A stretch of DNA of 64,000 bases from Cognatundibacterium jejuense (GTDB lineage Bacteria > Pseudomonadota > Gammaproteobacteria > Burkholderiales > Burkholderiaceae_D). Of this stretch, positions 39,188 to 57,735 are shown piece after piece. Positions within the stretch are counted from its first letter, which is position 1. Each line of letters begins with the position of its first letter. A model generated the notes under the pieces. It saw only the letters and a program-made list of their open reading frames with translations, had not been told where the DNA came from and ran no database searches. Position numbers and translations under genes: made by a program. Where the stretch lies: positions 1-64,000 of the forward strand of contig NZ_JACOFV010000017.1 in the NCBI RefSeq assembly GCF_014284255.1, in the 5' to 3' direction.

Positions 39188-40654
39188 ATGAGCGAAAACC
39201 TCCTCATCAACATCACACCGCAAGAAACCCGCGTGGCCCTGATTTTTCAAGGTGCCGTTCAAGAATTACACATAGAGCGCACTTTATCCCGTGGTCTGGT
39301 TGGTAATATCTACCTCGGAAAGGTGGTCCGGGTGCTACCCGGCATGCAATCAGCATTCATCGATATTGGTCTGGAACGTGCAGCGTTTTTGCACATTGCC
39401 GATATCTGGGATGCCCGCCCGCCAGAAGGAAATTCGTCCACTCCGCTGACCCCGATTGAAAAACTGCTATTTGACGGACAAGCCATTACAGTTCAGGTGA
39501 TTAAAGACCCTATCGGTACCAAAGGTGCTCGATTGTCGACGCAGATTTCTATCGCCGGCCGCATGCTCGTCTATTTGCCGCAAGATTCACACATCGGCAT
39601 TTCTCAAAAAATCGAGAATGAACAAGAGCGTGAAGCCTTACGCAGTAAAGTACAGAGCCTGCAACAACCAGATGAAAAAGGCGGATTCATCGTCCGCACC
39701 ATGGCAGAAGATGCCTCCAATGAAGACCTGAAGGCTGACGTCGATTATCTACGCCGCACCTGGTCGACCATCACTCAGCTAGCCAAAACTCAGCCGCCAA
39801 CTACCCTGCTCCATCAGGATCTGAATCTGGCACAACGTGTGTTGCGTGATTTTGTCAATGAAGAAACCGACAGTATCCAAGTCGATTCTCGCGAGAATTA
39901 TTTAATGTTGCAGGAGTTTGCGGTTCGCTACATGCCATCAGTGATTCCTAAGCTACAGCACTACACTGGCGAGCGTCCACTATTTGATTTATATGGTGTG
40001 GAAGAAGAAATCGAACGTGCTCTGGGACGTCGGGTTGACCTCAAATCTGGCGGCTACCTGATCATCGATCAAACCGAAGCCATGACCACAATCGACGTCA
40101 ACACCGGTAGTTTTGTCGCTGGCCGCAACTTTGATGACACCATATTCAAAACCAATCTGGAAGCCGCACATGCCATTGCACGTCAACTGCGCTTACGCAA
40201 TCTGGGTGGCATCATCATTCTCGATATTATCGATATGGAGAATGAAGAACATAAAACCGCGGTATTGACAGAACTGAATAAAGCGTTGTCACGCGACCGC
40301 ACTAAGTTGTCAGTCTCAGGTTTCTCTGCATTGGGATTGGTTGAAGTCACTCGCAAACGTACACGCGAATCGCTGGCACACATTTTATGTGAAACCTGCC
40401 CGGCGTGCTCCGGCAAAGGTCAGGTCAAAACAGCACGCACGATTTGTTATGAAATTTTGCGCGAATTATTACGTGAGGCAAAGCAATTTAACCCACGTGA
40501 ATTCCGCATCATGGCGTCGCAAATCGTGGTCGATATGTTCCTCGAAGAAGAATCACAACACCTGACTATGTTGGGTGATTTTATCGGCAAGCCGATCTCC
40601 TTGCAGGTCGAAAACATGTTCCATCAAGAGCAGTACGACATTATTCTGATGTAA
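39188..40654 (+). CDS. rng: Ribonuclease G
   Basis: 488 residues. S1 domain at about 35-125 (RGLVGNIYLGKVVRVLPGMQSAFIDIG), RNase E/G catalytic domain with SGGYLIIDQTEAMTTIDVNTGSFV and DIIDM metal ligands, and the zinc-link region CETCPACSGKGQV near 400. It processes 16S rRNA 5' ends and degrades mRNA. It is the last core gene before the acquired island; the integrase starts 177 nt downstream. Confidence 0.97.
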   Translation: MSENLLINITPQETRVALIFQGAVQELHIERTLSRGLVGNIYLGKVVRVLPGMQSAFIDIGLERAAFLHIADIWDARPPEGNSSTPLTPIEKLLFDGQAITVQVIKDPIGTKGARLSTQISIAGRMLVYLPQDSHIGISQKIENEQEREALRSKVQSLQQPDEKGGFIVRTMAEDASNEDLKADVDYLRRTWSTITQLAKTQPPTTLLHQDLNLAQRVLRDFVNEETDSIQVDSRENYLMLQEFAVRYMPSVIPKLQHYTGERPLFDLYGVEEEIERALGRRVDLKSGGYLIIDQTEAMTTIDVNTGSFVAGRNFDDTIFKTNLEAAHAIARQLRLRNLGGIIILDIIDMENEEHKTAVLTELNKALSRDRTKLSVSGFSALGLVEVTRKRTRESLAHILCETCPACSGKGQVKTARTICYEILRELLREAKQFNPREFRIMASQIVVDMFLEEESQHLTMLGDFIGKPISLQVENMFHQEQYDIILM

Positions 40655-40831: not shown

Positions 40832-42046
40832 ATGGCAAAAGTTGAATCCAATTTATTGAGTGATATTCAATTGCGTAAATGGATACGCGCCGGCGCACCT
40901 GTAGCCAAGTCTGATGGTGGCGGACTCACCTTTACCCTATCAGTCGCTGGCGCTGCTACTTGGGTACTACGGTTTCGTCATGGCGGTCGCAGACAAGAAA
41001 TCACTCTCGGACGCTACCCAGATATCACTCTTGCTATGGCGCGGATGATAGCGGCAAAAAAGCGGGTGACCCTCAACGACGGTGTGAATCCAGCCGACGA
41101 ACTTCGAAAAGTTAAAACGCATAGGAACTGGACGATACGGGAACTGATTGTAGATTATCGAAATTTAGTCTTATGCAGCCATGCTGAAAGCACTCAACGC
41201 AGCTACGAACGTAATTTGAAACGAATAGAAAACGGCATGGGTGCCATGTCAGTGCAATCTGTTGAACCTGCAGATATCGTAGCGCAAATTGAGCGAGTAA
41301 AAGCTGGATGGGTAGAAGTCTTTACGCTCTGGTGCACTTTGCGTGCCGTTTTCAAACATGCAACCGGTAAAAAAATTATCTTTGCGAGTCCATGTGCCGG
41401 CATTCAACTGGAAGCGATCATCGGTAAGCGCCCAGAAATTCGCCAACGCTTGATGCTGACAGACGATGAAATTACCACGTTGACAAATGCAGAGATGAAA
41501 CCTGACAATCTTTTGGCCATTAAAATTTTACTGGCAACAGGTACGCGTGGCTCCGAACTGTTCACAGCCTTGCGTTCCGATATTCATGTAAATGAAGCTC
41601 GTTGGCACATCCCTAAAAGTAAAACTGGAGCATCCATTGATATTCCTTTAGCTCCTTGCGTGGTCGCTTGGTTCTTGGAACTTTTTGAGTTGGCAGGCAA
41701 CTCTGCGTATGCACTCCCGGCTCGCTTACGCAAACGTATTGAGAGATTCAATGGTGATACCCACGTCTCAAAAGATACACTGCGGGAGGCTATCGATTTT
41801 TGGATAGTCAACCATCAACCGAAAATCCGTCGCTTCACCCCGCACGATTTGCGCAGTACTATGAAGAGTCACATGCGCAAACTAGGTGTGTCACGTGATA
41901 TTTCCGAGATGTGTCTGAACCATCAATTGCAAGGGGTCGAAGGAATTTACGATCAACACTCTTATTACGAGGAGAGACGGGCTGCCTTGGAATTATGGGG
42001 GCAATTTCTTGAGATTTGCCAAGCTGATCAAAAAAAAATTCCATAA
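40832..42046 (+). CDS. int: Tyrosine recombinase/integrase, P4-like
   Basis: 404 residues. N-terminal arm-binding domain of the DUF4102 type (GLTFTLSVAGAATWVLRFRHGGRRQEITLGRYP style), core-binding domain at about 100-190, and catalytic domain with Arg239 (TGTRGSEL), Lys264, His338/Arg341 (HDLRST), His364 (CLNHQ) and nucleophile Tyr373. AAGG precedes the ATG. It marks the left edge of an integrated island, next to rng. No tRNA attachment site is visible, so insertion in or near the rng 3' region is likely. Confidence 0.95.
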   Translation: MAKVESNLLSDIQLRKWIRAGAPVAKSDGGGLTFTLSVAGAATWVLRFRHGGRRQEITLGRYPDITLAMARMIAAKKRVTLNDGVNPADELRKVKTHRNWTIRELIVDYRNLVLCSHAESTQRSYERNLKRIENGMGAMSVQSVEPADIVAQIERVKAGWVEVFTLWCTLRAVFKHATGKKIIFASPCAGIQLEAIIGKRPEIRQRLMLTDDEITTLTNAEMKPDNLLAIKILLATGTRGSELFTALRSDIHVNEARWHIPKSKTGASIDIPLAPCVVAWFLELFELAGNSAYALPARLRKRIERFNGDTHVSKDTLREAIDFWIVNHQPKIRRFTPHDLRSTMKSHMRKLGVSRDISEMCLNHQLQGVEGIYDQHSYYEERRAALELWGQFLEICQADQKKIP

Positions 42047-43146: not shown

Positions 43147-43498
43147 GTAAGCGTCCAACCCCACCACCTTTTCAGAAGGCAGGTGTAGTGTTAAGTGCGG
43201 AGCGGTAGCAGTTCATCAATGCGGCTGTTTGGGCAGGTGGGGAGTTTTTCTAACGTTTCTTTTAACCAGGCGTACGGCTCAATCTCGTTGGCTTTCGCTG
43301 CGGCTAATAACGTTTGAATGGCAGCAGCTCTCTTGCCAGCACGTTCAGAACCAGCGAACAGCCAGTTCTTTTTGCCCAGAGCAATCGGCCTGATCGCATT
43401 CTCAATCGGATTGTTATCGATGGGCAGGTGCCCACTGTCGGCATAACGTGTGAATGCTGGCCAGCGTTTTAAACTGTAATCGATCGCCTTCGATAGCG
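43147..43498 (-). mobile_element. IS66-family right-end fragment
   Basis: 352 bp nearly identical to 43499-43850, starting with the terminal inverted repeat GTAAGCGTCCAAC and stopping abruptly at CGATAGCG, where the complete IS66 copy begins. Several base differences from the complete copy show it is an older or separate insertion. Confidence 0.9.
43191..43498 (-). pseudogene. tnpC: Truncated IS66 transposase (C-terminal piece)
   Basis: Encodes about the last 100 residues of a TnpC (KRWPAFTRYADSGHLPIDNN ... LLPLR) in the same frame as the intact gene to its right, ending at TAA 43191. No start remains. A relic of the fragment at 43147-43498. Confidence 0.85.
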
Positions 43499-43542
43499 GT
43501 AAGCGTCCAACCCCACCACCTTTTCAACAGGCAGGTACGATG

Positions 43543-45105
43543 CTAAGTGCGGAGCGGCAGCAGTTCATCAATGCGGCTGTTTGGGCAGGTGGGGAGTTTT
43601 TCTAACGTTTCTTTTAACCAGGCGTACGGCTCAATCTCGTTGGCTTTCGCTGTGGCTAATAACGTTTGAATGGCAGCAGCTCTCTTGCCAGCACGTTCAG
43701 AACCAGCGAACAGCCAGTTCTTTTTACCCAGAGCAATCGGTCTGATCGCATTCTCAATCGGATTGTTATCGATGGGCAGGTGCCCACTGTCGGCATAACG
43801 TGTGAATGCTGGCCAGCGTTTTAAACTGTAATCGATCGCCTTCGATAGCGCACTTCCTTCCGCACTGCTTTTGCGTAGTTGAACTAGCCACAGATGCATG
43901 GCATCGAGGCGAGGCTTGGCATGCTCTGCTCGCCATCGCTGTCGTTCTTCGATCGAATAATCTTGTGCTTCACTTTCTATCCGGTATAACTCGGCAATCC
44001 GTTGCAATGCTTCTTCGGCGACTGGGTGTTGATTGGCGGCATGTAAATCGAAGAATTTACGTCGCGCATGGGCCAGACATGCCAGTTCTGTGATCCCTGT
44101 TTTGAGTAGCTTTTTATAGCCTGCGTAATCGTCAACCATTAAATGTCCCTGCCAATCGGCAAGGAAGCTTTGTGCATGCGCTCCGCTACGATTTGGCTCA
44201 AACTCAAATACCACGATGGGTGCATCGGGTTCTAAGTTGTTGCTACGGTACGCCCACAGATAAGCACGCTTCGTTTTGCCTTTACCCGGATCAAGTTGTG
44301 GTACCGGTGTTTCATCGGCATGCAAGACCGTGCGTTGTTTCAGTAATTCTATGAGTCGATCAGCTAATGGTTGCAGTGCAACGCCGATGCGGCCTATCCA
44401 TTCTGCGAGCGTTGATCTGGAGATCGTGACGCCATGACGGGTGCTGATCTGTTCTATCCGATAGAGTGGCACATGATCCAGATATTTTTGAATCACTACC
44501 CACGCATGTAAGCTGGGTGTCGCTAAACCACCGTCAATGATCGCCGCCGGTATTGCTGCAGCAGTGATGGTTTCGCAATGACGGCAGGCATATTGTGGCC
44601 GGATATGCCGTTGTACAAAGAACCGTGCCGGTTCAACATCAAGCTGCTCGGTGATATCCTCGCCGATCTTCACTAAGGTTTGACCACAAGCACCACATGC
44701 GCAAGAATCAGGTTCGTGACGCTGTTCTACACGTGGCAATTCGGCAGGGAGTGGCTTACGTCCGGTTGGCTTTGCTTTGACGCGCGGTGTGGAAGAGAGT
44801 TGTTCCAGTTCCGCCTGCATGGCGTTGAGATCGGTTTCTTGCGTCTCATTAAAGAGGTCACGTTGTTGCGCCGTGAAGGCTTCTGATGTGCTGCAGAATT
44901 TAATCCGTTTATGGTACGCCAGTTCTAAAGTAAGTGCCTTGATCTTGGTGTCTTTGAGATGGATTTCCTGGCGTTGCCGGGCAACGAGATCAGCTTGTTC
45001 TTGAAGACGCTGTGCTTCTTGTGCCCAGGCTGCGACCTGTGCGGCCAGTGCTTCGGGCGTGGCCGTGTGGGGATTAAATTGAGTGAGGGCTTTGGCGAGG
45101 TCCAT
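43543..45105 (-). CDS. tnpC: IS66 transposase TnpC
   Basis: 520 residues. N-terminal coiled-coil with KDTKIKALTLELAYHKRIKF, zinc-binding CACGACGQTL and YACRHCETI pairs, and a DDE domain with VLHADETPV, MVDDYAGYK and NNPIENAIRPIALGKKNWLF. Intact; the active transposase of the IS66 element. Confidence 0.96.
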   Translation of the reverse strand: MDLAKALTQFNPHTATPEALAAQVAAWAQEAQRLQEQADLVARQRQEIHLKDTKIKALTLELAYHKRIKFCSTSEAFTAQQRDLFNETQETDLNAMQAELEQLSSTPRVKAKPTGRKPLPAELPRVEQRHEPDSCACGACGQTLVKIGEDITEQLDVEPARFFVQRHIRPQYACRHCETITAAAIPAAIIDGGLATPSLHAWVVIQKYLDHVPLYRIEQISTRHGVTISRSTLAEWIGRIGVALQPLADRLIELLKQRTVLHADETPVPQLDPGKGKTKRAYLWAYRSNNLEPDAPIVVFEFEPNRSGAHAQSFLADWQGHLMVDDYAGYKKLLKTGITELACLAHARRKFFDLHAANQHPVAEEALQRIAELYRIESEAQDYSIEERQRWRAEHAKPRLDAMHLWLVQLRKSSAEGSALSKAIDYSLKRWPAFTRYADSGHLPIDNNPIENAIRPIALGKKNWLFAGSERAGKRAAAIQTLLATAKANEIEPYAWLKETLEKLPTCPNSRIDELLPLRT

Positions 45106-45845: not shown

Positions 45846-45930
45846 GCTTGCTCTCCAAAGTGATCAGGTTTGAAGATTGCATGAAATTAAGGGGTGTTCA
45901 TAGGTGGGAGCGTCGGACGCTTACGTTACA

Positions 45931-45995
45931 GTGATCAGGTTTGAAGAGTGCATGAAATTAAGGGGTGTTCATAGGTGGGAGCGTTGGACGGTTAC
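45931..45995 (-). mobile_element. IS66-family left-end fragment
   Basis: 65 bp repeating the end of the complete element (GTGATCAGGTTTGAAG ... GGTGGGAGCGTTGGACGGTTAC), ending in a slightly altered inverted repeat. Together with the right-end fragment at 43147 it brackets the complete copy. Confidence 0.85.
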
Positions 45996-46144
45996 GATTT
46001 AATACGACAACTGCTCAATTTAAAGGATTTCGAAGCGAAGCGAGTTTTGATAATCGCCAAGACTCAATCCATGTTGAGGGAAATACGGTGGAGCTGCATT
46101 TCGGTCAGACCACCGAAGAATTGTCTACCTCAGCAAATCTTTAA
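45996..46144 (+). pseudogene. C-terminal gene fragment cut by IS66
   Basis: An open frame of 49 codons runs from the IS66 end to TAA 46144 and reads like a protein C-terminus (FKGFRSEASFDNRQ, GNTVELHFGQTTEELS). No start is present, suggesting the IS removed the 5' part of a rightward gene. It overlaps the HNH gene end by 15 bp. No family is recognised. Confidence 0.4.
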
Positions 46145-47167
46145 TACGCGATTAGAGTCAAGCTCTTTGAGTAAATCACGTTTTATTTTTGATAATTCAA
46201 ATTTCAAGATGCCTTGATGGTTAGGTGGTACGTTTTTCATTATTAGTGCCACAAAAATTTCTTCGTTTGGTGTGTTTAGATAGTGCTTATACTTATTAAA
46301 GTCGTCAACAATATCTTTGAGATCTTGAATCCTGTTTTGGTACTTCGCTCTTATGTTAAAGGTTGTTGGTGTGATGTCGTTTTTTTTTGTACCGTTATTG
46401 TCAATTTGAAATTCGTCAGAAGATCCATGAAAAAATGCTGGTGGAAAACTGAACTTGTAAATCTGATCGAATGATTCGTAAAAAGGATTTATATGTGTAT
46501 CCAGCGAGAAGTCAGTAACACCTCTATCAGTCGAGTTGCATGAATGACAGCTAGGAACCAAATTAAAAAATGAAAGTGCGAAAAAAGGATGTTTGGATTT
46601 TAAAAAAAAATGATCTAGGTCAAGGTAAGCTTTCTTTTTTTCGCACTTGGTTACGTCTAATCTTGTGTAATTGCAATATGGGCAGGTTGCGGAAGTAAAA
46701 TCAAGTTTAGTGAGTGTTTTTTTGCATTGCACCGTCTTTCGATATGCACCGTATGGAAAAATTGTCTCGCTTAGAAATTTGCCGAACCTTGTCTGCTTCA
46801 AAACACCATCCACCACAGTATAAATATCTTCATCTTTAAGAATCGAATATATCTCTTTATTTAGTGAAACTAGTGTTGTGGGTGTGCCGACGATAATCTC
46901 TCGTAACTTTATGAAATTATTTGACAATACATATTTAAAGAATTCTTCATGACGCTTTGCTTTTTCCGGTCTATTTTCAGCATATTCTTTTAAATATCTA
47001 GGTGTCGAAGAGGCCCCTTTCGCAGATTCACACCTTGCAACCAGCGAATGTTTACCACGTGTACCATTGCTCTTACTTTTAATTAGGTACTTCCAATGAT
47101 CGTCAGCCAAATTTGTAATAACTTGGTCCGCGTCAGCTCTGTTTAAATGATCCCGAATATTAATCAT
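46130..47167 (-). CDS. HNH nuclease, PtuB-like (Septu-type partner)
   Basis: 345 residues. HNH-type zinc finger: C162-x2-C165, LDLDH with Asp185/His186, NLVP at 202-205, and C207-x2-C210-N211. This is the architecture of the nuclease encoded beside SMC/ABC-type ATPases in Septu (PtuA/PtuB) and in some retron systems. Its ATG overlaps the ATPase stop by 8 nt, implying a complex. Base composition is markedly AT-richer than the core genome, suggesting transfer. No reverse transcriptase is nearby, so Septu-like is preferred over retron. Confidence 0.8.
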   Translation of the reverse strand: MINIRDHLNRADADQVITNLADDHWKYLIKSKSNGTRGKHSLVARCESAKGASSTPRYLKEYAENRPEKAKRHEEFFKYVLSNNFIKLREIIVGTPTTLVSLNKEIYSILKDEDIYTVVDGVLKQTRFGKFLSETIFPYGAYRKTVQCKKTLTKLDFTSATCPYCNYTRLDVTKCEKKKAYLDLDHFFLKSKHPFFALSFFNLVPSCHSCNSTDRGVTDFSLDTHINPFYESFDQIYKFSFPPAFFHGSSDEFQIDNNGTKKNDITPTTFNIRAKYQNRIQDLKDIVDDFNKYKHYLNTPNEEIFVALIMKNVPPNHQGILKFELSKIKRDLLKELDSNRVLKIC

Positions 47168-48836
47168 TGCCGAACAATCTCTGAAGCTTAAAGCGGATTA
47201 CTTCATCACCAATCAGGTGTGAAATATCATCTGGATTTCCTTTTACTGAACCGGAAGTCGCCTCAACGAGTTCAAGGTAACGTGCAATTTTTTCGTAAGC
47301 AAATTTACTCATCTTTTGATCACCAAGGAAGAACGGTTTTGCGTATAAGTCATAAAGATTGCCACCAAACGTTTGTTCATCTAACGCAATTCCATTCATA
47401 GTGCCGCCCTGAATATGTTGATCAAGAATCGTGATGCACTGGTTTGGTAGATCAGAAAGTAAGAACGGTGAATGCGAGGTCAATACAATTTGAATTTCCC
47501 CTCGAAACATCTCAGGCAAAACGCTTAAAAGTTTACTGAAAAATTCAACTTGCCAAAAAGGGTGAAGATACAAATCACCCTCATCAATACATAGAAGTAG
47601 TGATCTTTGACGAACGTTCTTGAGCTCGTCGTAAATTGAGGAAAAGAGATTTAAGTACGCTAAGTGACCGGAGCTTATCCCACTCCAATCGATGTTCATT
47701 CCTATAGACTCTCCAAATAACGAAACAAATTCTTGGATCAGGCCTTTCGATTTTTGAGAGTAAGCGATTTCAAAGGTAACTTCGGAGCGGTTTCGAAATC
47801 CCTCGGTACTGTAATCAATGTCTATAGAGGAGAAATTCTCTTGAATTTTAAGTAGAAAGTCGATTTGCCGACGGATAACCTCTAGATCGAATTCACTTTC
47901 TCGACTGCTCTTTTTCTCGTAACAAATTAAGCTCGAACTTGGAAATGATTCTGAAATAAACCGAATCAAATTTTCTGATATCTCTTCTGTTTTCTGATCG
48001 TTGGAATTCCCTTGCATAAAATCAACCGCATTACTTAGGAATAACGAGTACTCATCAGCGTTGATCCGAAGGCTCAAGATGTATTCAAAGTAGGAAAGGC
48101 GTACTAAATGAAAAAATCGGTTTCGTCCATTAATTTCACGTAACCGATTTCTAAATAAATCCTTAAGTGATTCTAGGCTAACCAAAATCGAAGCTGAATT
48201 TCCACTATATCGGCTACTTAAACTAAATTTGCTAAGTCGTTTTTGCGTAAATCTGATTTTATGCGGTAGATCGATATCAATTTTCCTGAATAATCGGGAA
48301 TTGATTAAGATCATCTGCTTCTCGAAGTCACTTTTCGCCGGTCTTACTCTGTTTTCAAAGATTCCGTTTTTCACCGAGATGTCTGAAACCTCTCTTCCAA
48401 AGTAATTTCTAGACTTGTTGAATACGTTTGAAAAATAGATCACCTTAAGTTCTTTGACTTCTCCGACGTATTCAATAATTTCGATGCTGAAATTGGCACT
48501 GGGTTGACTCAAATTTTTTTTAAAAGAGTAGTGACAGGTTTGAATTCCATCTTCTTCAGTGATGATAAGGAAATGTGCATTCAGTCCCGATTTGGAATTC
48601 TTGAGGGCGTTGCATATCAAGGAAAGTGCATTACTTTTTCCCGATCCGTTCTTTCCAATTAGCCCGGTAACTTCGTCGATTCTCTGACCAAAGAAATCTA
48701 GCGGCAATTTTCTACAGGACTCGCTTGTTAATAGGTTTTTCTCTGAATCGAAATTGAACTTGGTTGTGCTTGATAGATTCAAAGAAAAATTTTCTAAGTT
48801 CCTATATTTTTCTATCCATATATAACAAATCTTCAT
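47160..48836 (-). CDS. SMC/ABC-type ATPase, PtuA-like (Septu-type)
   Basis: 558 residues. Walker A GKNGSGKS at 61-68, ABC-signature-like WSGISSGHLAYLNLF near 384-398, Walker B LLLCIDEGD at 413-421, and switch motif TSHSPFLLSD at 453-462. The long middle (about 90-380) is a helical insert. Known PtuA proteins form rings with PtuB and degrade or restrict phage nucleic acid when triggered. It lies 50 nt after hsdR with GAGAG before its ATG, on the same strand as the type I genes. Confidence 0.82.
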   Translation of the reverse strand: MKICYIWIEKYRNLENFSLNLSSTTKFNFDSEKNLLTSESCRKLPLDFFGQRIDEVTGLIGKNGSGKSNALSLICNALKNSKSGLNAHFLIITEEDGIQTCHYSFKKNLSQPSANFSIEIIEYVGEVKELKVIYFSNVFNKSRNYFGREVSDISVKNGIFENRVRPAKSDFEKQMILINSRLFRKIDIDLPHKIRFTQKRLSKFSLSSRYSGNSASILVSLESLKDLFRNRLREINGRNRFFHLVRLSYFEYILSLRINADEYSLFLSNAVDFMQGNSNDQKTEEISENLIRFISESFPSSSLICYEKKSSRESEFDLEVIRRQIDFLLKIQENFSSIDIDYSTEGFRNRSEVTFEIAYSQKSKGLIQEFVSLFGESIGMNIDWSGISSGHLAYLNLFSSIYDELKNVRQRSLLLCIDEGDLYLHPFWQVEFFSKLLSVLPEMFRGEIQIVLTSHSPFLLSDLPNQCITILDQHIQGGTMNGIALDEQTFGGNLYDLYAKPFFLGDQKMSKFAYEKIARYLELVEATSGSVKGNPDDISHLIGDEVIRFKLQRLFGND

Positions 48837-48886
48837 TTGACTCTCTATTTTGTCCCGAAAGTACGATTCATAGCGCGTTTCCTTGC

Positions 48887-51868
48887 TTAGTAATATTCTT
48901 TAATATACGCATACGCCCGATCAAACAAAGCCTGATCAGTATGCAGCTTGTACTTTAACAATGCCTTGCGCAATGACTTCTGCACCTCGCGTTCACCACC
49001 AATTGTTGTTTGCCACCCAGGGAAACGCACGATACGAACGATGGCATCGATGTCGGTAACGATCCGTTCGACTACCGCTGGTGTTTGATCTGTTTTCAAC
49101 TCTAAGAACAGTTCGGTCAGTGCTGCTTGTGGTGACTTGTCTTGCTTCGCAGCTTCTAGATCCTTTTCTGCCTGAATAGTCTCTTTCGCGATCTTACATA
49201 ACTCTTTAACGAATTCGATGGATGTGATCAGTCCTTGCTCCGCCTTATCGCGCAGATCTAGAAGTCGTTCGCTTAGTGATTTGAATCGAGGGTCGCTTGC
49301 ATGCTTTTGGAATCGTTTGGCGAGCATTTTTTCAAGTTGCTTAACTTGTTTGGAGTCGGGGTTGTTGAAAATGTTTTCGATGACGTCCGCGTCTAATACG
49401 AATTCATCTAGAGTATGTACATCTCCGACATGGATGTGGTCATGAATGAGCTGGGTGGTTTGAGCACCTAGCGTTAGCCACAATAGTTTCCCCACATTAT
49501 CTGATGCAGGCTTCACCGACTCATAAACTTGAGCCAACCATTTGTAATCTTGGTTGTAGAGGTTGAGTATTGTATCTGGCGACAATGACTCCCATAGTCG
49601 CGCTAAATACTTAAAATCTAACGCGAAAGCATCTTTCTTCTCAACCGTACTAATCGCATTTTGTGCAGCTTCCAAACCTTCAAAGCCATCTAGGGTTCTG
49701 TCAACCCCAGGAAAATGCGCCAGTGCATCCCTCATAGCTTGTGGTAGTTGATCACGCAGCTCTGAAAGATTGCTGATAACCTGCTTCACGCTTTGCTCAT
49801 CGAATTCAAGCGCTTTTGCTGCATCATCGAATACGCCAAAGTAATCGACAATCCGGCCGAAAGTCTTCTGCGGAAATAGTCGGTTGGTGCGGCAGATTGC
49901 TTGTAATAGCGTATGGTCTTTCAGCGATTTATCTAAATACATGGTCTGCAAAATAGGCGCGTCAAAACCCGTTAGTAGCTTGGCTGTGACGATAAGAAAC
50001 TGAAGCTCTGAGCCTTTATTGTTAAACTCCTCGACCACTTTCTCTTGTTGGCTTTTATCTAGGCCCCATTTTTTCTTGAAATCGAAATCGTCGTTGGCAG
50101 TCGTAGATATCACCACTCGGCTTGCCGCTTCTGGGAAGTGTTTATCAAGCTCTTCTTTGTATTGCACGCAGGCGTGACGGTCTGGTGTCACGATCATCGC
50201 CTTGAAACCTTGCGGTTCAACTTTAGTCTTGAAATGGATCGCAATATCTTCAACGATCTTCTTGACTCGTTCCGGTGATTTCAAGAAGGCTGCCATTTTG
50301 GCTGACTTTTGGTTGAGCGCATCGGCTTCCTCATCCGTCAGTGCTGTGCCTTCCTTAAACTCCGCAAAGGCTTTATCAATGGCCTCTTTATCGACATGAA
50401 CGTCGACTAAGCGTGGTTCAAAATGTAGCGGTAAGGTTGCTGCATCGCGAATGGAGTCATGGAAGGTATAGCGAGACATGTAGCCACCTTCGTCCGCTTC
50501 CGCACCAAACGCCCAAAACGTATTCTTATCTGCTTTATTGACAGGTGTTCCGGTCAGACCAAACAAGAACGCATTCGGCAAAGCAGCGCGCATTTGACGG
50601 CCTAGATCGCCTTCTTGCGTGCGATGTGCTTCATCGACCAAGACGATGATGTTATCTCTGGTATTCATGTTCGGCTTCGCATCGCGGAACTTATGAATCA
50701 TGGATATAATGATTTTTCGTGTATCGCGCTCCAACATCGTTTGCAGTTCTTTGATATTGTCGGTGCTCTCCACATTGGAAATATCTGCCGCATTAAACGT
50801 GCCGGATATTTGTGTGTCAAGATCCGTCCTATCTACTAGGACTAGAACGGTCGGGCTTTTGAGTGCTTGTGTTCGGCGCAGCTTTTGCGCGGCAAAGACC
50901 ATGAGTAGTGATTTACCCGAGCCTTGAAAGTGCCAGATCAGTCCCTTTTTTATTTGACCTTCGACTACCCGTTCAACAATTTTGTTCGCGCCTTCGTACT
51001 GTTGAAAGCGGGGGATTACCTTCATGCGAACCTTTTTGTTGTTACTCGAAAAGAGGGTGAAGTTCCGCAAAATATCTAGCAAGCGTACAGGCGAGAGTAG
51101 GTCGGACAGTTCTCGGCCGATTTCGGCGAGCCCTAAAGCCTGAGCCAGCGCCGTGTTTTCTGATTCAATGCGCCACGGTGCCCAAAACTCCAGCGGGCAA
51201 CGCACTGCACCGTAGAAGAGCTGCTTACCCTCGGTAGCAAAGGACAGAATATTGGGCACAAAGAGTTGTGGTACAGCGTTTTCGTATATGTCATGAATCT
51301 CGTGAGCACCATCGAGCCAAGAAATGGCCGGGCGAATTGGCGTTTTGGCTTCGCCTATCACCACTGGAATACCGTTGATGAAGAACACCACATCAGGAAT
51401 TTTGGTTTCGCGGTGATGAATTCGGAACTGGTTCGTTACGATACCGTGGTTGTTTGCGATGTTCTCGAAATCGAAGATTCGAACCGGGCGATGAGAATTG
51501 TTTTCTCCAAAGGGCATCGACTTTTCGCCGCAGACCCACTTGAGAAACTCCTCGTTGGCTCGGACTAAACCTGTATGTGCCACCGAACTCAGAATTCCCC
51601 GTAGATTATGAATCACCTCGTCCGCGCGCTCTGGTTTTTCAGCGATTTCCGGGTTGAGGCGGATCAGTGCAGATTTGAGCTCATTTTCCAAAAGCACTTC
51701 ATTCACGCTTCGATCAAGCTGTTCCGGCGAGCGATAGCGCCAGAAATGGCCGTAGCTGTTGTCGATGTTTTCGGCTACCCCAGATACAGTGGCTTGGGTG
51801 TTGAGATTGGTTCCCGAAAGTTTATGGATGATGAAATGTTCTACGGAATTGAGTTCGGTAAAGGCCAT
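48887..51868 (-). CDS. hsdR: Type I restriction enzyme HsdR
   Basis: 993 residues. N-terminal PD-(D/E)xK nuclease with Asp159 and Glu173-x-Lys175 (GEAK), helicase Walker A QGSGKS at 315-320, DEAH box at 412-415, and further SF2 motifs (LTGTPV, LLTGFDAP, QAICRTNR). C-terminal helical region mediates binding to the methylase core. It translocates and cuts unmodified DNA. Its start overlaps the hsdS stop (TAATG). Confidence 0.96.
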   Translation of the reverse strand: MAFTELNSVEHFIIHKLSGTNLNTQATVSGVAENIDNSYGHFWRYRSPEQLDRSVNEVLLENELKSALIRLNPEIAEKPERADEVIHNLRGILSSVAHTGLVRANEEFLKWVCGEKSMPFGENNSHRPVRIFDFENIANNHGIVTNQFRIHHRETKIPDVVFFINGIPVVIGEAKTPIRPAISWLDGAHEIHDIYENAVPQLFVPNILSFATEGKQLFYGAVRCPLEFWAPWRIESENTALAQALGLAEIGRELSDLLSPVRLLDILRNFTLFSSNNKKVRMKVIPRFQQYEGANKIVERVVEGQIKKGLIWHFQGSGKSLLMVFAAQKLRRTQALKSPTVLVLVDRTDLDTQISGTFNAADISNVESTDNIKELQTMLERDTRKIIISMIHKFRDAKPNMNTRDNIIVLVDEAHRTQEGDLGRQMRAALPNAFLFGLTGTPVNKADKNTFWAFGAEADEGGYMSRYTFHDSIRDAATLPLHFEPRLVDVHVDKEAIDKAFAEFKEGTALTDEEADALNQKSAKMAAFLKSPERVKKIVEDIAIHFKTKVEPQGFKAMIVTPDRHACVQYKEELDKHFPEAASRVVISTTANDDFDFKKKWGLDKSQQEKVVEEFNNKGSELQFLIVTAKLLTGFDAPILQTMYLDKSLKDHTLLQAICRTNRLFPQKTFGRIVDYFGVFDDAAKALEFDEQSVKQVISNLSELRDQLPQAMRDALAHFPGVDRTLDGFEGLEAAQNAISTVEKKDAFALDFKYLARLWESLSPDTILNLYNQDYKWLAQVYESVKPASDNVGKLLWLTLGAQTTQLIHDHIHVGDVHTLDEFVLDADVIENIFNNPDSKQVKQLEKMLAKRFQKHASDPRFKSLSERLLDLRDKAEQGLITSIEFVKELCKIAKETIQAEKDLEAAKQDKSPQAALTELFLELKTDQTPAVVERIVTDIDAIVRIVRFPGWQTTIGGEREVQKSLRKALLKYKLHTDQALFDRAYAYIKEYY

Positions 51869-53007
51869 TAGAATACCTCGTTGATGAGGGATTTTTGGAG
51901 AGCTTTGGAAGAATCTAGTTTCAATTCAATTGAGTCAACTGAAGCTTCTATTGAACCAATTATTTCTTCAAATATTGCTCTGTCTTTTTCGCAGAGGATA
52001 CGCAGTTTAATTGAGCCAAACTCTGTTTTGTTGATAATTGGAACTGCTGTTGTTCCAGTGCGAGCAAGGATTCTTGATTTGTGAAATCTAAGGAGATAGA
52101 GAATGTAAATTGAAGAATATTGTTTTTTGGGAATTAGCGCATTTATCTGTTGGTTCGAACAGCATTCCAACTTGTTTATCGCAACCTTTCCAATCGTTGA
52201 GCCAATACAAACCGTTAAGATTGAATTCGGCGGTATTTTTCGTGATTTTTGTGCTCCTTCTTCAGTTAGAAAACGCACATAGTTTTTTATGTAAGGGGAA
52301 TCATCTATCTCTGCCGGAGATATAAAAGGAATGCTCCCGCCCCAAAATCCATCATCACTTGTTGATGGCGTGGTGCCAGTAATTACCTCGCCTAATTCCG
52401 AAATTTTTTTAACTTCATTTGCCTTCTTGAACGATTCGTAAACGAAGCATTTTTTGGAAATTTTTAACTTCTCCATAACTGATAGATTCTGCTCAATCAC
52501 CTCATCCATTTCCCAGAACAGGTTCGCCAGTTCGGACTGCTGTTCTTTGGGTGGAAGAATGAATTCCTGAATTTTCAGTATGCTCCAGTTGATCGTTGGC
52601 GAAAGCCCACCGGCGGAAATATCCACGGCACGGTGCATAAATAGGTCGGAATGAAGAAAGAACGGCAGAAGTCTAGGATCAATCACTTCGGGATTCGCTC
52701 GCAAAACAAATGCGTGAGCGGAACAGATCGCTTCGGTAGTCACAACCGAGGCTTTTCGCTGATAGGCTCGGCGTTTGCCAAAAATCACATCGCCGGGATA
52801 GCATTTTAGCTTTTGCCCTTCCACATCTGAAGGCTGACCGAAGCGTTTGATGTGAATGGATTCGGCGTCGATATGTTCTAAGCCGATATAGATTTCAAGA
52901 TCTGTTTCACCGGGCTCTACTCGTTCAGAAATATTTTTCACAATCTGGTCAAATCGAAAGGGTTTCCAATCTGACTTATCGAGATTTCTAAGATTGATTT
53001 TTTTCAT
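51868..53007 (-). CDS. hsdS: Type I specificity subunit HsdS
   Basis: 379 residues with two target recognition domains, about 12-165 (ends LPPKEQQSELANLFWEMDEVIE) and about 200-345, each followed by a helical spacer; the second spacer is SIEASVDSIELKLDSSKALQK. The two half-sites define an unknown bipartite sequence. It overlaps hsdM2 by 4 nt (ATGA) and hsdR by 1 nt. It is the only specificity subunit for two HsdM genes. Confidence 0.95.
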   Translation of the reverse strand: MKKINLRNLDKSDWKPFRFDQIVKNISERVEPGETDLEIYIGLEHIDAESIHIKRFGQPSDVEGQKLKCYPGDVIFGKRRAYQRKASVVTTEAICSAHAFVLRANPEVIDPRLLPFFLHSDLFMHRAVDISAGGLSPTINWSILKIQEFILPPKEQQSELANLFWEMDEVIEQNLSVMEKLKISKKCFVYESFKKANEVKKISELGEVITGTTPSTSDDGFWGGSIPFISPAEIDDSPYIKNYVRFLTEEGAQKSRKIPPNSILTVCIGSTIGKVAINKLECCSNQQINALIPKKQYSSIYILYLLRFHKSRILARTGTTAVPIINKTEFGSIKLRILCEKDRAIFEEIIGSIEASVDSIELKLDSSKALQKSLINEVF

Positions 53008-54479
53008 TGTTTTGCTTCGCTCAAAGTCTGAAACAGTTCATTCATACTTAACTGTAATTTTTCAGAAGTGTCATTCCAGGCTTCCAGCGCGTCGTTAATG
53101 GAAAGATTGCTATGGTCAGAATCGACATTGCTTACATACTGTGCAATATTCAGGCTGCCTTTTTTCTCAATAACATCTTCATTACTGATCACTTTACAGA
53201 AGCCATCTTCGTCTTGAAAGTTGTGGTATGCATCGAAGATTCGTTTGATATTCTTGTGTTCAAGATAAGAAATTGACTTCTCCTGCTTCACTTCTTTGAC
53301 TGCATTAATGATCAGAACTTTGCCTTTCCGATTTGGAGCTTTATTCGTTGTTGTAATGAGTAAGCACGCTTCCATCGGCGAGTTGTAAAACAGATTCGGC
53401 CCTAGCCCAATCACGCATTCCACCAAATCTTCCTCCACCATTTTCCGACGCATCTCCGCTTCCGAATCACGGAATAAAACGCCATGCGGCCATAGTGAAA
53501 TAGAACGGCCATTCTTCTCATCAAGACTTTTCTGAATGTGCTGTTGAAACGCGTAATCTGCACAACCCTGAGGCGGAGTTCCCCATACATTTCTGCCATA
53601 GGGATCGCTTTCAAAGTTCTTTCTATCCCATGACTTAATCGAGTAGGGCGGGTTAGCAAGGATAACGTTGAATTTTTTCAGTTGATCATTTTCAAGCAAA
53701 CCCGGATTCGCCAATGTATCGCCGCGTACAATTTGAAACTCCTCTATGCCGTGCATGAACATATTCATGCGGGCAATCGCTGAAGTAAGAAGATTGATTT
53801 CTTGCCCGTAAAGTTTGAGTGTGCGGTATTCTTTGCCTTCGCTTTTGAGATGCAAAGCGCAATTCAGTAATAAGCCACCCGAGCCGCAGGTCGGGTCATA
53901 GACACTTTCGCCCGGCTGCGGGTCCATGATCATGGTCATGAGTTTGACTACAGTGCGGTTGGTGTAAAACTCGGCTGCTGTATGGCCACTGTCATCGGCG
54001 AATTCTTTGATCAAATACTCATAGGCATTGCCTAGCTTATCATCGGGAACATTAGCGAGGCTAAGATTTTGTTGCGAGTAATGCTCAATGAGGTTAATGA
54101 GCATTGCATCGGATAAGCGTTCTTTATTAGTCCAACTGGCGTCGCCAAAAATGCCATGCAGCGTATCAGGGTTTGCCTTCTCAATTGCCCGCATCGCTTC
54201 TTGCAATGCTTGGCCAACGTTGACCGTTGTTTCGCGAACGTCGCTCCAATGCGCACCTTTTGGAACGATGAAATGATGATTTTCCGCGAACTCAGCATAA
54301 GCCAAATCGCCATTGCTCTCGGCAAGCGCGAGATCGTACTCTTCATCATAAACGTCTGAAATGCGTTTGAAGAAGAGTAGAGGGAAAATGTATTGCTTGT
54401 AATCCCCAGCGTCGATCGTACCTCGTAGCGCGACTGCCGCGCCCCAGAGGTATTTTTCTAGTTCTTGTTGCGTCATCAT
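53004..54479 (-). CDS. hsdM: Type I methyltransferase HsdM (second copy)
   Basis: 491 residues. N-terminal HsdM helical domain (LEKYLWGAAVALRGTIDAGDYK), SAM-binding motif DPTCGSGG at 195-202, and catalytic NPPY at 276-279, the N6-adenine signature. Being directly coupled to hsdS (ATGA overlap), this is the likely methyltransferase of the HsdS complex. It shares much of its N-terminal half with the first HsdM but is clearly diverged. Confidence 0.95.
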   Translation of the reverse strand: MMTQQELEKYLWGAAVALRGTIDAGDYKQYIFPLLFFKRISDVYDEEYDLALAESNGDLAYAEFAENHHFIVPKGAHWSDVRETTVNVGQALQEAMRAIEKANPDTLHGIFGDASWTNKERLSDAMLINLIEHYSQQNLSLANVPDDKLGNAYEYLIKEFADDSGHTAAEFYTNRTVVKLMTMIMDPQPGESVYDPTCGSGGLLLNCALHLKSEGKEYRTLKLYGQEINLLTSAIARMNMFMHGIEEFQIVRGDTLANPGLLENDQLKKFNVILANPPYSIKSWDRKNFESDPYGRNVWGTPPQGCADYAFQQHIQKSLDEKNGRSISLWPHGVLFRDSEAEMRRKMVEEDLVECVIGLGPNLFYNSPMEACLLITTTNKAPNRKGKVLIINAVKEVKQEKSISYLEHKNIKRIFDAYHNFQDEDGFCKVISNEDVIEKKGSLNIAQYVSNVDSDHSNLSINDALEAWNDTSEKLQLSMNELFQTLSEAKQ

Positions 54480-56254
54480 TCTTCGGTTTCCGTTGAATCC
54501 GGTATTGCGCTATCGAGCAAGTTCGAGAGTTGCGCAGTTAAAGTCTTTTTCCGATTGTCGATAAATTCGATGAAATCAAAAAAGCTTAGTGATTGATCTG
54601 TCTTAATGTGATTTTGCATGAGGAAGCTCTCACGGTCTGATTGGCTACGTATATTTTTTTCTAGCCATTCAGCGAAAGGTTTATCGCTCTTTTCGATATT
54701 TTGCGTTGCTTGTAAAAGCTGCAAATTACTCAAATTATTGAACTCAGATAAATAGGCTTCTATTTGCTCTTCGCTGATTCCTACTTTCTTTAAATTCCGC
54801 TTGTAAAAATGAGATTTTGGATGGATGTGGTCTTGGTGATATTTGAAATTAAAGTTTAGGCCAGGGTACAACAAGGTTAGTACGCAATAGGTTTTTGCTT
54901 GTCCATATTGCAGGTCAAGAAGGTTCTTGATGTCATCCGAACTAAACGATATTGATTTCCTGCGCCCTTTATAGTGTTGGATAATTTCATAAAGAGGGAA
55001 GCGACCTGGAAATTTATTGATCAAGTCACGCATCGCGGGATAGATCGAATCTGGTTGTCCACCGAATACGCCTTTTAGCAGCACTCGGGCAAGCCATTCT
55101 CTAATCGCTCGGCGATCAGCGTCTCTGTGGGCTGAATGAAGTATTTGATCTTCGAATTTGTTTTTGTAAATAAAATATGCCAGCGGAATAATCGTATTGG
55201 TCGCGATGAGGTTATCTCTGTTGTATCCAAACTTGGCGACGAGTTCAATCGCTGCACGAAGAGCAGCCGAGGTCTGATCCCACTGTTTTTCGATGATGGA
55301 CATATTTTCTTTCGTAAAATTGTCCACTTTAAATTTAACATCGAAGTCCGCCAGTACCAGACAAGCCTTTAGAACGATATCTTTGTTAAACGAAAAGCCA
55401 TCGCCAATTTTATTAATGTCATCGACAAACTCATGAATGACTTCTCGCGCATCTTTCTCTTTCCACTGCGCTGTAGCAATAGATAAGAGCAAATCTGAAT
55501 AGCTTAATTTTGTGCCACCACTGTTGATACGAATAAATATTTGGAGAACTTTATCGAGTTCCTCTCCTTCTTCAAGGTAAAAACTGATAGTGCCTTTTTG
55601 ATGGATGACATTAAAGAACGCGTTTAGTGTATTTATGGCGAATGTAGACTCTTGTTCTGAATAGACCGAGCTATCCATGAGTTTGTTTTGCATCAGATAC
55701 ATGGATGATTTTCCCATGTCTGTGATTTCAAGTATCTTCCCGCATTCGAACCAAAAATGACCTTCGCTAGACTCTGCTTCTTTTTCGGTCAAGAATTTGA
55801 AATCGTATTCCATCTCGAGATCTTCTGATTTTTTCAAAAGATTAAGATAGAGTTTCTTTTCTGGGTAGGCGTGCGCACTGCTCTTATGAAAATAGGGCAT
55901 CTTCTTCGCATATGATCCAGTCAGGGCGACATACATTGACGTCATGCGCTGTTGTCCGTCTAGAATCGCAATGACGTCTTCTTCATTTTCCAGCTCGGCT
56001 TTTCGATTGTGACGGTTATCTTTCTCGTGGTATTTCTTCAGAAATTCATAAAATTGAAAATCCTTGATTTTGCTCTTATCAACCCTCCAGAAAAGAAAAG
56101 TGCTGATTGGGTAATCTCGCATCAAAGAATCGAAAAGCGTCTCTATTTGATCTGTGTCCCATACAAACTCACGTTGAATTGACGGCAGTACGTAGTTTCT
56201 TTTACGGATATTGTCGATTGCTTTTTTGATGGTAATTGGGGTTTCGTAAGCCAT
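54476..56254 (-). CDS. DUF262 + HNH (DUF1524-like) protein, GmrSD-like
   Basis: 592 residues from ATG 56254, whose start overlaps the hsdM1 stop (TAATG); a longer frame would begin inside hsdM1. N-terminal DUF262 domain: LPSIQREFVW at 23-32, DGQQR at 99-103, FIRINSGGTKLSYSDL at 240-255. C-terminal DUF1524-like HNH: DHIHP at 475-479 and NNLSNLQLL at 506-514. Proteins joining these domains act as type IV, modification-dependent restriction enzymes (GmrSD). Here it is embedded between two HsdM genes of a type I operon and overlaps hsdM2 by 4 nt. Confidence 0.9.
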   Translation of the reverse strand: MAYETPITIKKAIDNIRKRNYVLPSIQREFVWDTDQIETLFDSLMRDYPISTFLFWRVDKSKIKDFQFYEFLKKYHEKDNRHNRKAELENEEDVIAILDGQQRMTSMYVALTGSYAKKMPYFHKSSAHAYPEKKLYLNLLKKSEDLEMEYDFKFLTEKEAESSEGHFWFECGKILEITDMGKSSMYLMQNKLMDSSVYSEQESTFAINTLNAFFNVIHQKGTISFYLEEGEELDKVLQIFIRINSGGTKLSYSDLLLSIATAQWKEKDAREVIHEFVDDINKIGDGFSFNKDIVLKACLVLADFDVKFKVDNFTKENMSIIEKQWDQTSAALRAAIELVAKFGYNRDNLIATNTIIPLAYFIYKNKFEDQILHSAHRDADRRAIREWLARVLLKGVFGGQPDSIYPAMRDLINKFPGRFPLYEIIQHYKGRRKSISFSSDDIKNLLDLQYGQAKTYCVLTLLYPGLNFNFKYHQDHIHPKSHFYKRNLKKVGISEEQIEAYLSEFNNLSNLQLLQATQNIEKSDKPFAEWLEKNIRSQSDRESFLMQNHIKTDQSLSFFDFIEFIDNRKKTLTAQLSNLLDSAIPDSTETEE

Positions 56255-57735
56255 TACAGGAATCTCTTTAAAATAGTTTTGAATTTGTCTTCTGCTACCA
56301 AGCTCTCTTGCCACGCTGTTTTCAAATCAGCCATGGCTTGTTCAACAGTTGGTAGATTGTCTTCGATGATTTTTTCGACATACAACGGAATATTGAGGTT
56401 GTAGTCGTTAGCTTCTAGGTCCGCTAGTGACGCGACAAAGACTGAGTTTTCGATGTTTTCGAATTTTGAATACCAGTCGTAAATTTGGCCGACATGTTGA
56501 GTCTCTAGATAGTTCTGGGCGCGGCCAACGCGAACTTGATCAGATGCATCAATAAACAAGACTTTCCTTTTTCGGTCTTTTTCTTTGTTTTGTTTGAACA
56601 CCATGACGCAGGCTGCGAGTTGGGTACCGTAGAAAATATTTGGACCTAGGCCTATGACTGCCTCGAGAATATCTTTTTCGATTAACGCCTGGCGAATTTT
56701 TCCCTCTGCACCTTTTCTAAATAGCGCACCGTGTGGCAGCACTACCGTCATGCGTCCTGTGCTATTCATCGACTTGACCATGTGTTGAACCCAAGCCATA
56801 TCGCCGTTGCCTTGTGGAGGTACGCCAGCGATATTGCGTCCGAACGGATCATTTGCCCAGTTTTCTGAGCCCCAGTCGCTTAGAGAGAATGGCGGGTTTG
56901 CGATAACGCAGTCAAACGTCTTCAGACCGTCGGCTTCAAAAAATCCAGGGTTGCGAAGTGTATCTCCGCGAATAATCTCGAAGTCCTCGATCCCATGCAA
57001 AAACATATTCATTCTCGCAATAGAACTCGACGTTAGATTCTTTTCTTGCCCAAATAATTTTAGGGTTCTGTAGTCTTCGTTATTATGTTTAAGATGATCA
57101 ACACACTCGAGCAACATGCCACCGGTGCCGCACGCAGGGTCGTAAATCGTTTCCCCTTGATGTGGATCTAAAATCAAACCCAAAAGATGCACAACAGATC
57201 GTGGTGTATAAAACTCACCCGCTTTTTTGTTTGTAAGATCAGCGAAGTGCTTGATCAGGTATTCGTATGCTTGTCCAAGCATATCTGGATCAACATATTC
57301 GCTATTTAGACTGTATTGTGAGAAGTGTTCGATTAGATCAATAAGAAGCTTATCCGAGAGCTTGTTCTTGTTGCTCCACTGCGCATCACCAAATATCCCG
57401 TAAAGGTAATCTTGATTTGCCTTCTCAATTCCGCGAAGAGCGAATTCAATAGCCTGTCCAACATTTGTTGTTTGCTCTCTTACGTCTTGCCAATGGCAGT
57501 TCGCAGGAATTTCGAATCTATGCATCTCTGGAAGCTGGGCATAGGCTTGGTCTCCATCAGACTCCAAAAGAGCGGTTCTATATTCCTCATCGTAAACGTC
57601 AGAAATGCGTTTAAAGAAAAGGAGGGGGAAAATATATACTTTAAAGTCTGAGGCATCGACTGGTCCTTTTAAGATCCAGGCCGCTTTAGATAGATATTGT
57701 TCTAGTTGCGAAAGCGTTAATTTGTTTTTGGCCAT
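56254..57735 (-). CDS. hsdM: Type I methyltransferase HsdM (first copy)
   Basis: 493 residues from ATG 57735; a TTG eight codons earlier is possible. Helical N-domain (LEQYLSKAAWILKGPVDASDFK), SAM-binding DPACGTGG at 199-206, and catalytic NPPF at 280-283, where the aromatic residue is Phe rather than the usual Tyr but still within the NPP(Y/F) pattern. First gene of the defence operon and not followed by its own hsdS: its neighbour is the DUF262-HNH gene. It may methylate through the shared HsdS or protect against the DUF262 nuclease. Confidence 0.95.
   Translation of the reverse strand: MAKNKLTLSQLEQYLSKAAWILKGPVDASDFKVYIFPLLFFKRISDVYDEEYRTALLESDGDQAYAQLPEMHRFEIPANCHWQDVREQTTNVGQAIEFALRGIEKANQDYLYGIFGDAQWSNKNKLSDKLLIDLIEHFSQYSLNSEYVDPDMLGQAYEYLIKHFADLTNKKAGEFYTPRSVVHLLGLILDPHQGETIYDPACGTGGMLLECVDHLKHNNEDYRTLKLFGQEKNLTSSSIARMNMFLHGIEDFEIIRGDTLRNPGFFEADGLKTFDCVIANPPFSLSDWGSENWANDPFGRNIAGVPPQGNGDMAWVQHMVKSMNSTGRMTVVLPHGALFRKGAEGKIRQALIEKDILEAVIGLGPNIFYGTQLAACVMVFKQNKEKDRKRKVLFIDASDQVRVGRAQNYLETQHVGQIYDWYSKFENIENSVFVASLADLEANDYNLNIPLYVEKIIEDNLPTVEQAMADLKTAWQESLVAEDKFKTILKRFL

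Follow-up and report, generated by a model that had tools for sequence, protein, structure and literature searches.

The 64,000-nucleotide (nt) stretch of Cognatundibacterium jejuense DNA analysed here (the window; contig NZ_JACOFV010000017.1, positions 1 to 64,000) carries at 46130-57735 seven leftward genes which, judging from their sequences, probably form a composite defence operon (we put the probability at about 0.72). It would comprise a type I restriction-modification (R-M) core of the PacII type with two different HsdM subunits, a BrxU-type enzyme embedded in that core, and a separately acquired ATPase–HNH pair of the PDC-M62 type, all carried by a 32-kb integrative element. All seven predicted open reading frames were found, with the boundaries listed in Table 1, and the junctions claimed for them were found as well: from hsdM1 to the HNH gene, TAATG, ATGA, ATGA, TAATG, a 50-nt gap, and an 8-nt overlap. 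Pfam agrees with the predicted families for six of the genes (N6_Mtase with HsdM_N twice, GmrSD_N, Methylase_S, HSDR_N/SWI2_SNF2, and AAA_21/AAA_15), but the last one has no Pfam HNH match, and PADLOC names it PDC-M62B, with PtuB a weaker choice. The original prediction of three stacked modules stands in so far as one co-oriented cluster with tight junctions holds a type I system together with a GmrSD-type enzyme and the ATPase–HNH pair, but the two HsdM proteins belong to one heteromeric system of the N6-methyladenine/N4-methylcytosine (m6A/m4C) type. The genes are presumably co-expressed; a scan of the operon found neither promoter-like sites (14 vs. a mean of 23.8) nor terminator-like sites (11 vs. 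a mean of 12.5) above the expectation from shuffled sequences. The G+C content is 35-37% in the ATPase–HNH pair, 40% in the BrxU-type gene, 41% in hsdS, and 44-47% in hsdM1, hsdM2, and hsdR, the last being at 47%.

The non-canonical type I systems, of which PacII has been solved, produce m6A by an HsdM subunit with the NPPF motif and m4C by one with NPPY (Zhu 2022, PMC9613975; PDB 7vru, 7vs4); in the accessible text of that paper, these systems are said to encode a typical R subunit, and Morgan 2016 is cited for the m6A/m4C subgroup. The window likewise has an operon-like cluster in which two different HsdM proteins (M1 and M2, 52% identical to each other) are accompanied by HsdS and HsdR, and the nearest solved relative of M1, M2, and HsdS is in each case the respective PacII subunit (7vru chains A, B, and C). 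The possibility of two independent type I modules was rejected, and the four proteins are assigned by sequence to a single PacII-type system, because HsdM1 and HsdM2 match different subunits of one solved complex. Across PacII-type loci, all 32 M2 rows have NPPY, and NPPF is found in 26 of 27 M1 rows, the exception being L072, with none found in the search stretch; neither M1 pieces shorter than 400 aa nor L053 and L054, loci with a single HsdM, entered these counts, and M1 is split in L026 and L065. The equivalent of Arg29 of PacII M2 is present in all 32 M2 rows (31 by pattern, L015 by eye), the window M2 included, and in a quick tree the M2 rows lie on one side of a branch with an SH-aLRT support of 100. 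Two other loci, L068 and L137, contain an M2-type HsdM (with NPPY in L068), S, and R, with no M1 seen, and are possibly m4C-only type I systems.

Table 1. Features of the proposed composite operon and of the putative integrative element in the window
Feature	Coordinates	Strand	Basis and remarks
M1, HsdM of PacII M1 type	56254..57735	-	best PDB match 7vru_A, 550 bits; NPPF, predicted m6A
BrxU/GmrSD-type modification-dependent endonuclease (predicted), between M1 and M2	54476..56254	-	GmrSD_N; PADLOC HEC-05 4.8e-233; BrxU 7p9k 475 bits, residues 2-583
M2, HsdM of PacII M2 type	53004..54479	-	best PDB match 7vru_B, 613 bits; NPPY (predicted m4C), AEFYTNR, Arg29 equivalent
HsdS; TRD1 PacII-like (predicted CCC half-site), TRD2 different from PacII	51868..53007	-	7vru_C 189 bits
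HsdR restriction subunit	48887..51868	-	TIGR00348 552 bits, cut-off 285
PDC-M62A AAA ATPase, distant PtuA relative	47160..48836	-	PDC-M62A 3.7e-77, PtuA 5.4e-18; PDB retron Ec78 ATPase 6.8e-8 over 406-491
PDC-M62B HNH-type partner	46130..47167	-	PDC-M62B 1.1e-36, PtuB 3.4e-11; motifs CPYC, DLDHF, CxxCNS
Left copy of the 21-bp direct repeat (rng 3' end)	40634..40654		exact match to right copy G000:C9:72822-72842, outside the window
Tyrosine integrase of the element	40832..42046	+	Arm-DNA-bind_3 + Phage_integrase

All six contact residues reported in PMC9613975 for the first target recognition domain (TRD1) of PacII (R75, R76, Y78, Q79, K81, and H94) are kept in the window HsdS, and therefore a CCC half-site is predicted for it; across the 31 aligned HsdS rows TRD1 is more conserved than TRD2. 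By this account, M1 and M2 would pair on one HsdS, M1 producing m6A and M2 m4C, and together with HsdR would cut DNA without these marks, CCC being one predicted half-site of the core. The restriction complex would be R2M1M2S, a stoichiometry anticipated in PMC9613975. The window system thus resembles PacII in its two HsdM proteins (NPPF and NPPY), single HsdS, and TRD1 contact residues, but differs in TRD2, in the gene of BrxU type that separates M1 from M2, and in the additional gene pair after R; neither this gene nor this pair is mentioned for PacII in the portion of PMC9613975 at hand.

The second gene, predicted to encode a DUF262-HNH protein, codes for a putative BrxU (HEC-05)-type enzyme for which NTP-dependent cleavage of DNA with modified cytosines is predicted; its alignment with BrxU (Table 1) spans nearly the full protein, with DGQQR present and an HNH C-terminus, the GmrSD_C match (20.1 bits) lying under the Pfam cut-off of 23. 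BrxU of pEFER cuts DNA containing 5-methylcytosine (5mC), 5-hydroxymethylcytosine (5hmC), or glucosylated 5hmC (glc-5hmC) and accompanies BREX, according to the excerpts available of PMC8565348. The window protein shares with it (PDB 7p9k) the full-length DUF262-HNH architecture, about 42% identity, aligned DGQQR and DH..N..N stretches, and a location beside a DNA methylase gene, but the pEFER enzyme sits in BREX between brxC and pglX, while its window homologue lies in a type I operon.

The position between M1 and M2 recurs. A scan of genome contigs with the window protein gave 42 other BrxU-like loci, and in 13 of them M1 (or its end), BrxU, M2, and S follow in this order, with R in the stretch for 11; the hosts of the BrxU-like loci include Pseudomonadota and Bacteroidota, and the linkage itself is found in both phyla. 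Several loci are incomplete: a contig end truncates L007, M2 survives merely as remnants in L009 and L013, and L047 is broken. In a tree of 45 BrxU-like proteins, all 15 that adjoin M1 fall into one 22-row clade (support 100/98). Among relatives outside this clade on six plasmid records, two are in BREX and four have no annotated BREX or hsdM neighbour, with a lone hsdS near one.

A TAATG overlap joins M1 to BrxU in 11 of the 14 BrxU-bearing operons in which that junction is readable, the window included, which could be taken to mean that M1 and BrxU form a separate methylation-protected unit beside an ordinary M2-S-R type I system. Such a division is highly improbable, since M1 adjoins M2-S-R without BrxU in L051, L052, L072, and L076, and M1 and M2 match two subunits of one solved complex. 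In L051 and L052, on Streptomyces and Exiguobacterium plasmids, M1 and M2 abut directly, and the occurrence of M1-M2-S-R without BrxU there suggests that BrxU is a part added to the PacII-type core. M1-seeded searches matched 10 of 397 Flavobacteriaceae genomes (nine with M1) and nine of 369 genomes of the window's class, its own included. The M1-M2 gap of the nine Flavobacteriaceae loci holds a DUF262 protein in five, another gene alone in three, and nothing in one. Because other operons hold other genes or nothing there, the gap looks like a cargo slot, of which BrxU is one stable occupant. Among further contents seen, the bacteroidotal loci L131, L133, L134, and L135 have a 507-aa gene after M1, with M2 next in three of them (the L133 copy, the only one family-searched, matches DUF4062 and HATPase_c_4), and the gap at L074:11697-13797 holds a DUF4062 gene and a Schlafen/AlbA_2-HATPase gene. 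A literature search of partial coverage found no description of the M1-BrxU-M2 arrangement, which we regard as a variant built of parts that are each known or catalogued.

It is worth mentioning that a GmrSD-type enzyme has been described within a type I operon, namely TgvAB in that of the Vibrio cholerae VPI-2 island (PMC11411939, in the part accessible to us). The embedding is alike, but TgvAB consists of two DUF262 proteins accompanied by three hsd genes, and the window operon has one DUF262 gene, coding for a BrxU-like protein, between two HsdM genes. The BrxU-type enzyme would cut DNA with 5-modified cytosines, so that phages evading the m4C system by shielding their cytosines would meet a second cutter; it would have to spare the host's own m4C.

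The last two genes had been taken for Septu. This assignment was not borne out: the NCBIfam PtuA and PtuB models score 47 of the required 500 bits and 16.9 of 150, respectively, and PADLOC ranks PDC-M62 first. The adjacent genes scan as M62A and M62B, as does the pair of L084, and are best described as a PDC-M62 candidate system distantly related to Septu. With Septu/PtuAB and the retron I-A effectors the pair shares an ATPase with a similar core and an HNH-type partner, although it fits PDC-M62A/B best. The CPYC, DLDHF, and CxxCNS motifs of the HNH partner are kept in all three aligned pairs (the window's and two homologues). AlphaFold models of the ATPase (four sequences, mean pLDDT 42.4) and of the HNH partner (three sequences, 48.5) were too poor for use. 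The pair would act as an autonomous third, ATP-gated nuclease layer downstream of the other two.

PDC-M62-like pairs outside annotated type I operons were found at seven places on plasmids, in Janthinobacterium, Klebsiella, Enterobacter, Haliscomenobacter, Pantoea, and Bernardetia; three of these places represent one enterobacterial lineage, the annotation splits one Klebsiella copy, the gene tables are incomplete, and the PADLOC scan covered some of them. A search for the pair in genomes matched one of 399 in the order and one of 185 in the class, both being the window's own, as well as three viral contigs, of which L078 and L080 carry it outside type I operons as judged by gene sizes, and L079 ends inside the ATPase. 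The pair was found in none of the four genomes of core-bearing relatives searched, no match to it was found in the further loci L129, L130, L132, L133, and L136, and none of the 30 other tabulated PacII-type loci has a close relative of it, the region downstream of R being readable in 20. Conserved linkage in related genomes, named beforehand as the test of the original prediction, was thus observed for the DUF262 gene, in one clade, but the ATPase–HNH pair moves independently, and it looks like a separate acquisition.

Whether the clustering implies more than shared position is an evenly balanced question. On the account of a mere defence island, the genes would share a place and perhaps a promoter, with no common function, and the pair would be a recent passenger; its lack of counterparts in the 20 readable loci, its low G+C content, and the location of the operon on an integrative element with an adjoining IS66 are consistent with this. 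The 8-nt overlap of the ATPase and HNH genes, their same-strand position 50 nt from hsdR, and the recurrence of the BrxU linkage in two phyla speak for a closer association.

Sister operons bear on a further explanation. Five PacII-type operons carry other Septu-like pairs, located after R in L006 and L008 and between S and R in L016, L061, and L067 (the last two from the M1-seeded set). L006 is the closest relative of the window core, with 96% identity in M1, 94% in BrxU, 86% in M2, and 94% in R, and 33% in S. In L006 (17386-20675) and L008 (17497-20780) hsdR is directly followed by a gene for an 841-849-aa fusion protein and then by a PtuB gene. The C-terminal half of the fusion is PtuA, while the N-terminal half is HsdM-like (in L008, 26% identical to the M1 of that locus), with FPPI or FPPF replacing NPPF. 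Lacking the catalytic Asn, this half may serve in docking or sensing, and the pseudo-HsdM-PtuA fusion hints that such pairs are coupled with restriction. The fusion was found in none of 16 plasmid records at 80% cover, nor in viral contigs by exact short patterns, the sole method used there. A recurrent pair of genes (about 570 and 655 aa) is found between S and R at L060:5667-9346 and L063:8991-12672, the L060 copies having no Pfam match.

These fusions and pairs would fit a guard, that is, an ATPase–HNH pair that is silent as long as the restriction complex remains intact, firing upon its inhibition or bypass by a phage, as PrrC does for EcoprrI; PrrC figures as a guardian of R-M in those sections of the review literature that were available. 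A Sphingobium type I operon, ending with a more distant pair of a PtuA-like ATPase, named restriction system-associated in the record, and an M62B-like gene, points the same way. So does the AAA_13 gene (PADLOC PDC-S06) between M2 and S in L133, which we take to be kin of PrrC/RloC, AAA_13 presumably being the ATPase family linked to that guard. The window ATPase, however, belongs to AAA_21/AAA_15 and has no HsdM-like domain, the Sphingobium ATPase is nearer to the PtuA model than to PDC-M62A, and the plasmid and viral pairs described above occur outside type I operons. A guard function of the window pair is therefore unlikely. A broader version, in which PacII-type operons serve as platforms and their passengers are functionally tied to restriction (a BrxU lineage adapted to spare m4C but cut other modified cytosines, and Septu-like effectors gated by HsdM/HsdS, as the fusions of L006 and L008 suggest, with the window pair as an unfused gate), appears still more doubtful.

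The frequency of the passengers was compared with that in ordinary type I operons of the same family, Flavobacteriaceae, the controls being the 40 best-scoring of 55 non-PacII HsdR matches, several of them cut by contig ends. Septu-like pairs occur in two of nine PacII-type operons and in none of the 40 (p 0.031); when other Bacteroidota are added the figures are 2/14 vs. 0/40 (p 0.064), and a profile count that includes OLD-like control ATPases gives 2/9 vs. 3/40 (p 0.22); as an argument for a guard the difference is weak. The three control ATPases found by the PtuA profile are OLD-like (EEPE...LHP) with no HNH-like neighbour and were excluded after the result had been seen. A DUF262 gene lies in 5/9 PacII-type and 5/40 ordinary operons (p 0.011), those of the controls being counted by a DGQQR search. 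The 14-locus count leaves out L134 (no M2 in the stretch) as well as L137 and G516/L068 (no M1); L066 was merged with L015, and L001, L048, L049, L058, L059, and L081 are copies of the window or of other loci. Septu-like pairs may be missed in L064, L066, L131, and L135, since R is unseen there, and in L067, which ends inside R. Coming from small samples, the differences are suggestive at most.

Several observations weigh against the composite operon as outlined here. An Arg at the R29 position is also found in 7 of 27 M1 rows (four by pattern, three by eye), the window M1 not among them, so that this residue fails to separate M1 from M2, and the quick tree does not place all M1 rows on the same side of a branch, two changes being needed. 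Of the 31 HsdS rows, only 10 have the KRRAYQRK stretch of TRD1, and CCC is therefore not predicted for the whole group. The remainder of the 22-row BrxU clade consists of two decayed PacII loci, two Hma-like, one canonical type I, and two solo cases (Hma-like and canonical labels being based on gene sizes and short matches, not on family searches), hence the linkage is not absolute. Within the window's class, the M1-M2 gap of the eight other PacII-type loci holds no DUF262 gene; with other Bacteroidota added, the DUF262 difference becomes 5/14 vs. 5/40 (p 0.10), and since such a gene is also present in five of the 40 ordinary operons, its embedding is not special to the PacII-type subgroup. 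Finally, the text of PMC8565348, as far as available, mentions neither m4C nor 4mC.

The seven-gene operon is, by its sequence context, cargo of a putative 32-kb integrative element inserted at rng. The 21-bp repeats bracket 32.2 kb comprising the integrase gene, IS66, the operon, DUF932 and YqaJ genes, and a homologue of a Gp3-like directionality factor; family searches covered the element genes inside the window. Tandem duplications lie near both ends of IS66, at 43147-43850 (352 bp, 2.0 copies) and 45859-45996 (71 bp, 1.9 copies).

The composite operon would combine m6A/m4C type I restriction with BrxU, both described before, in an arrangement that recurs across two phyla. It raises the testable question of how a cutter of modified cytosines may operate when the surrounding system puts marks of its own on cytosine. 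Moreover, the sister loci, in which an ATPase is joined to an apparently inactive methylase domain, give a tangible starting point for asking how a failure of restriction might be sensed by backup nucleases.

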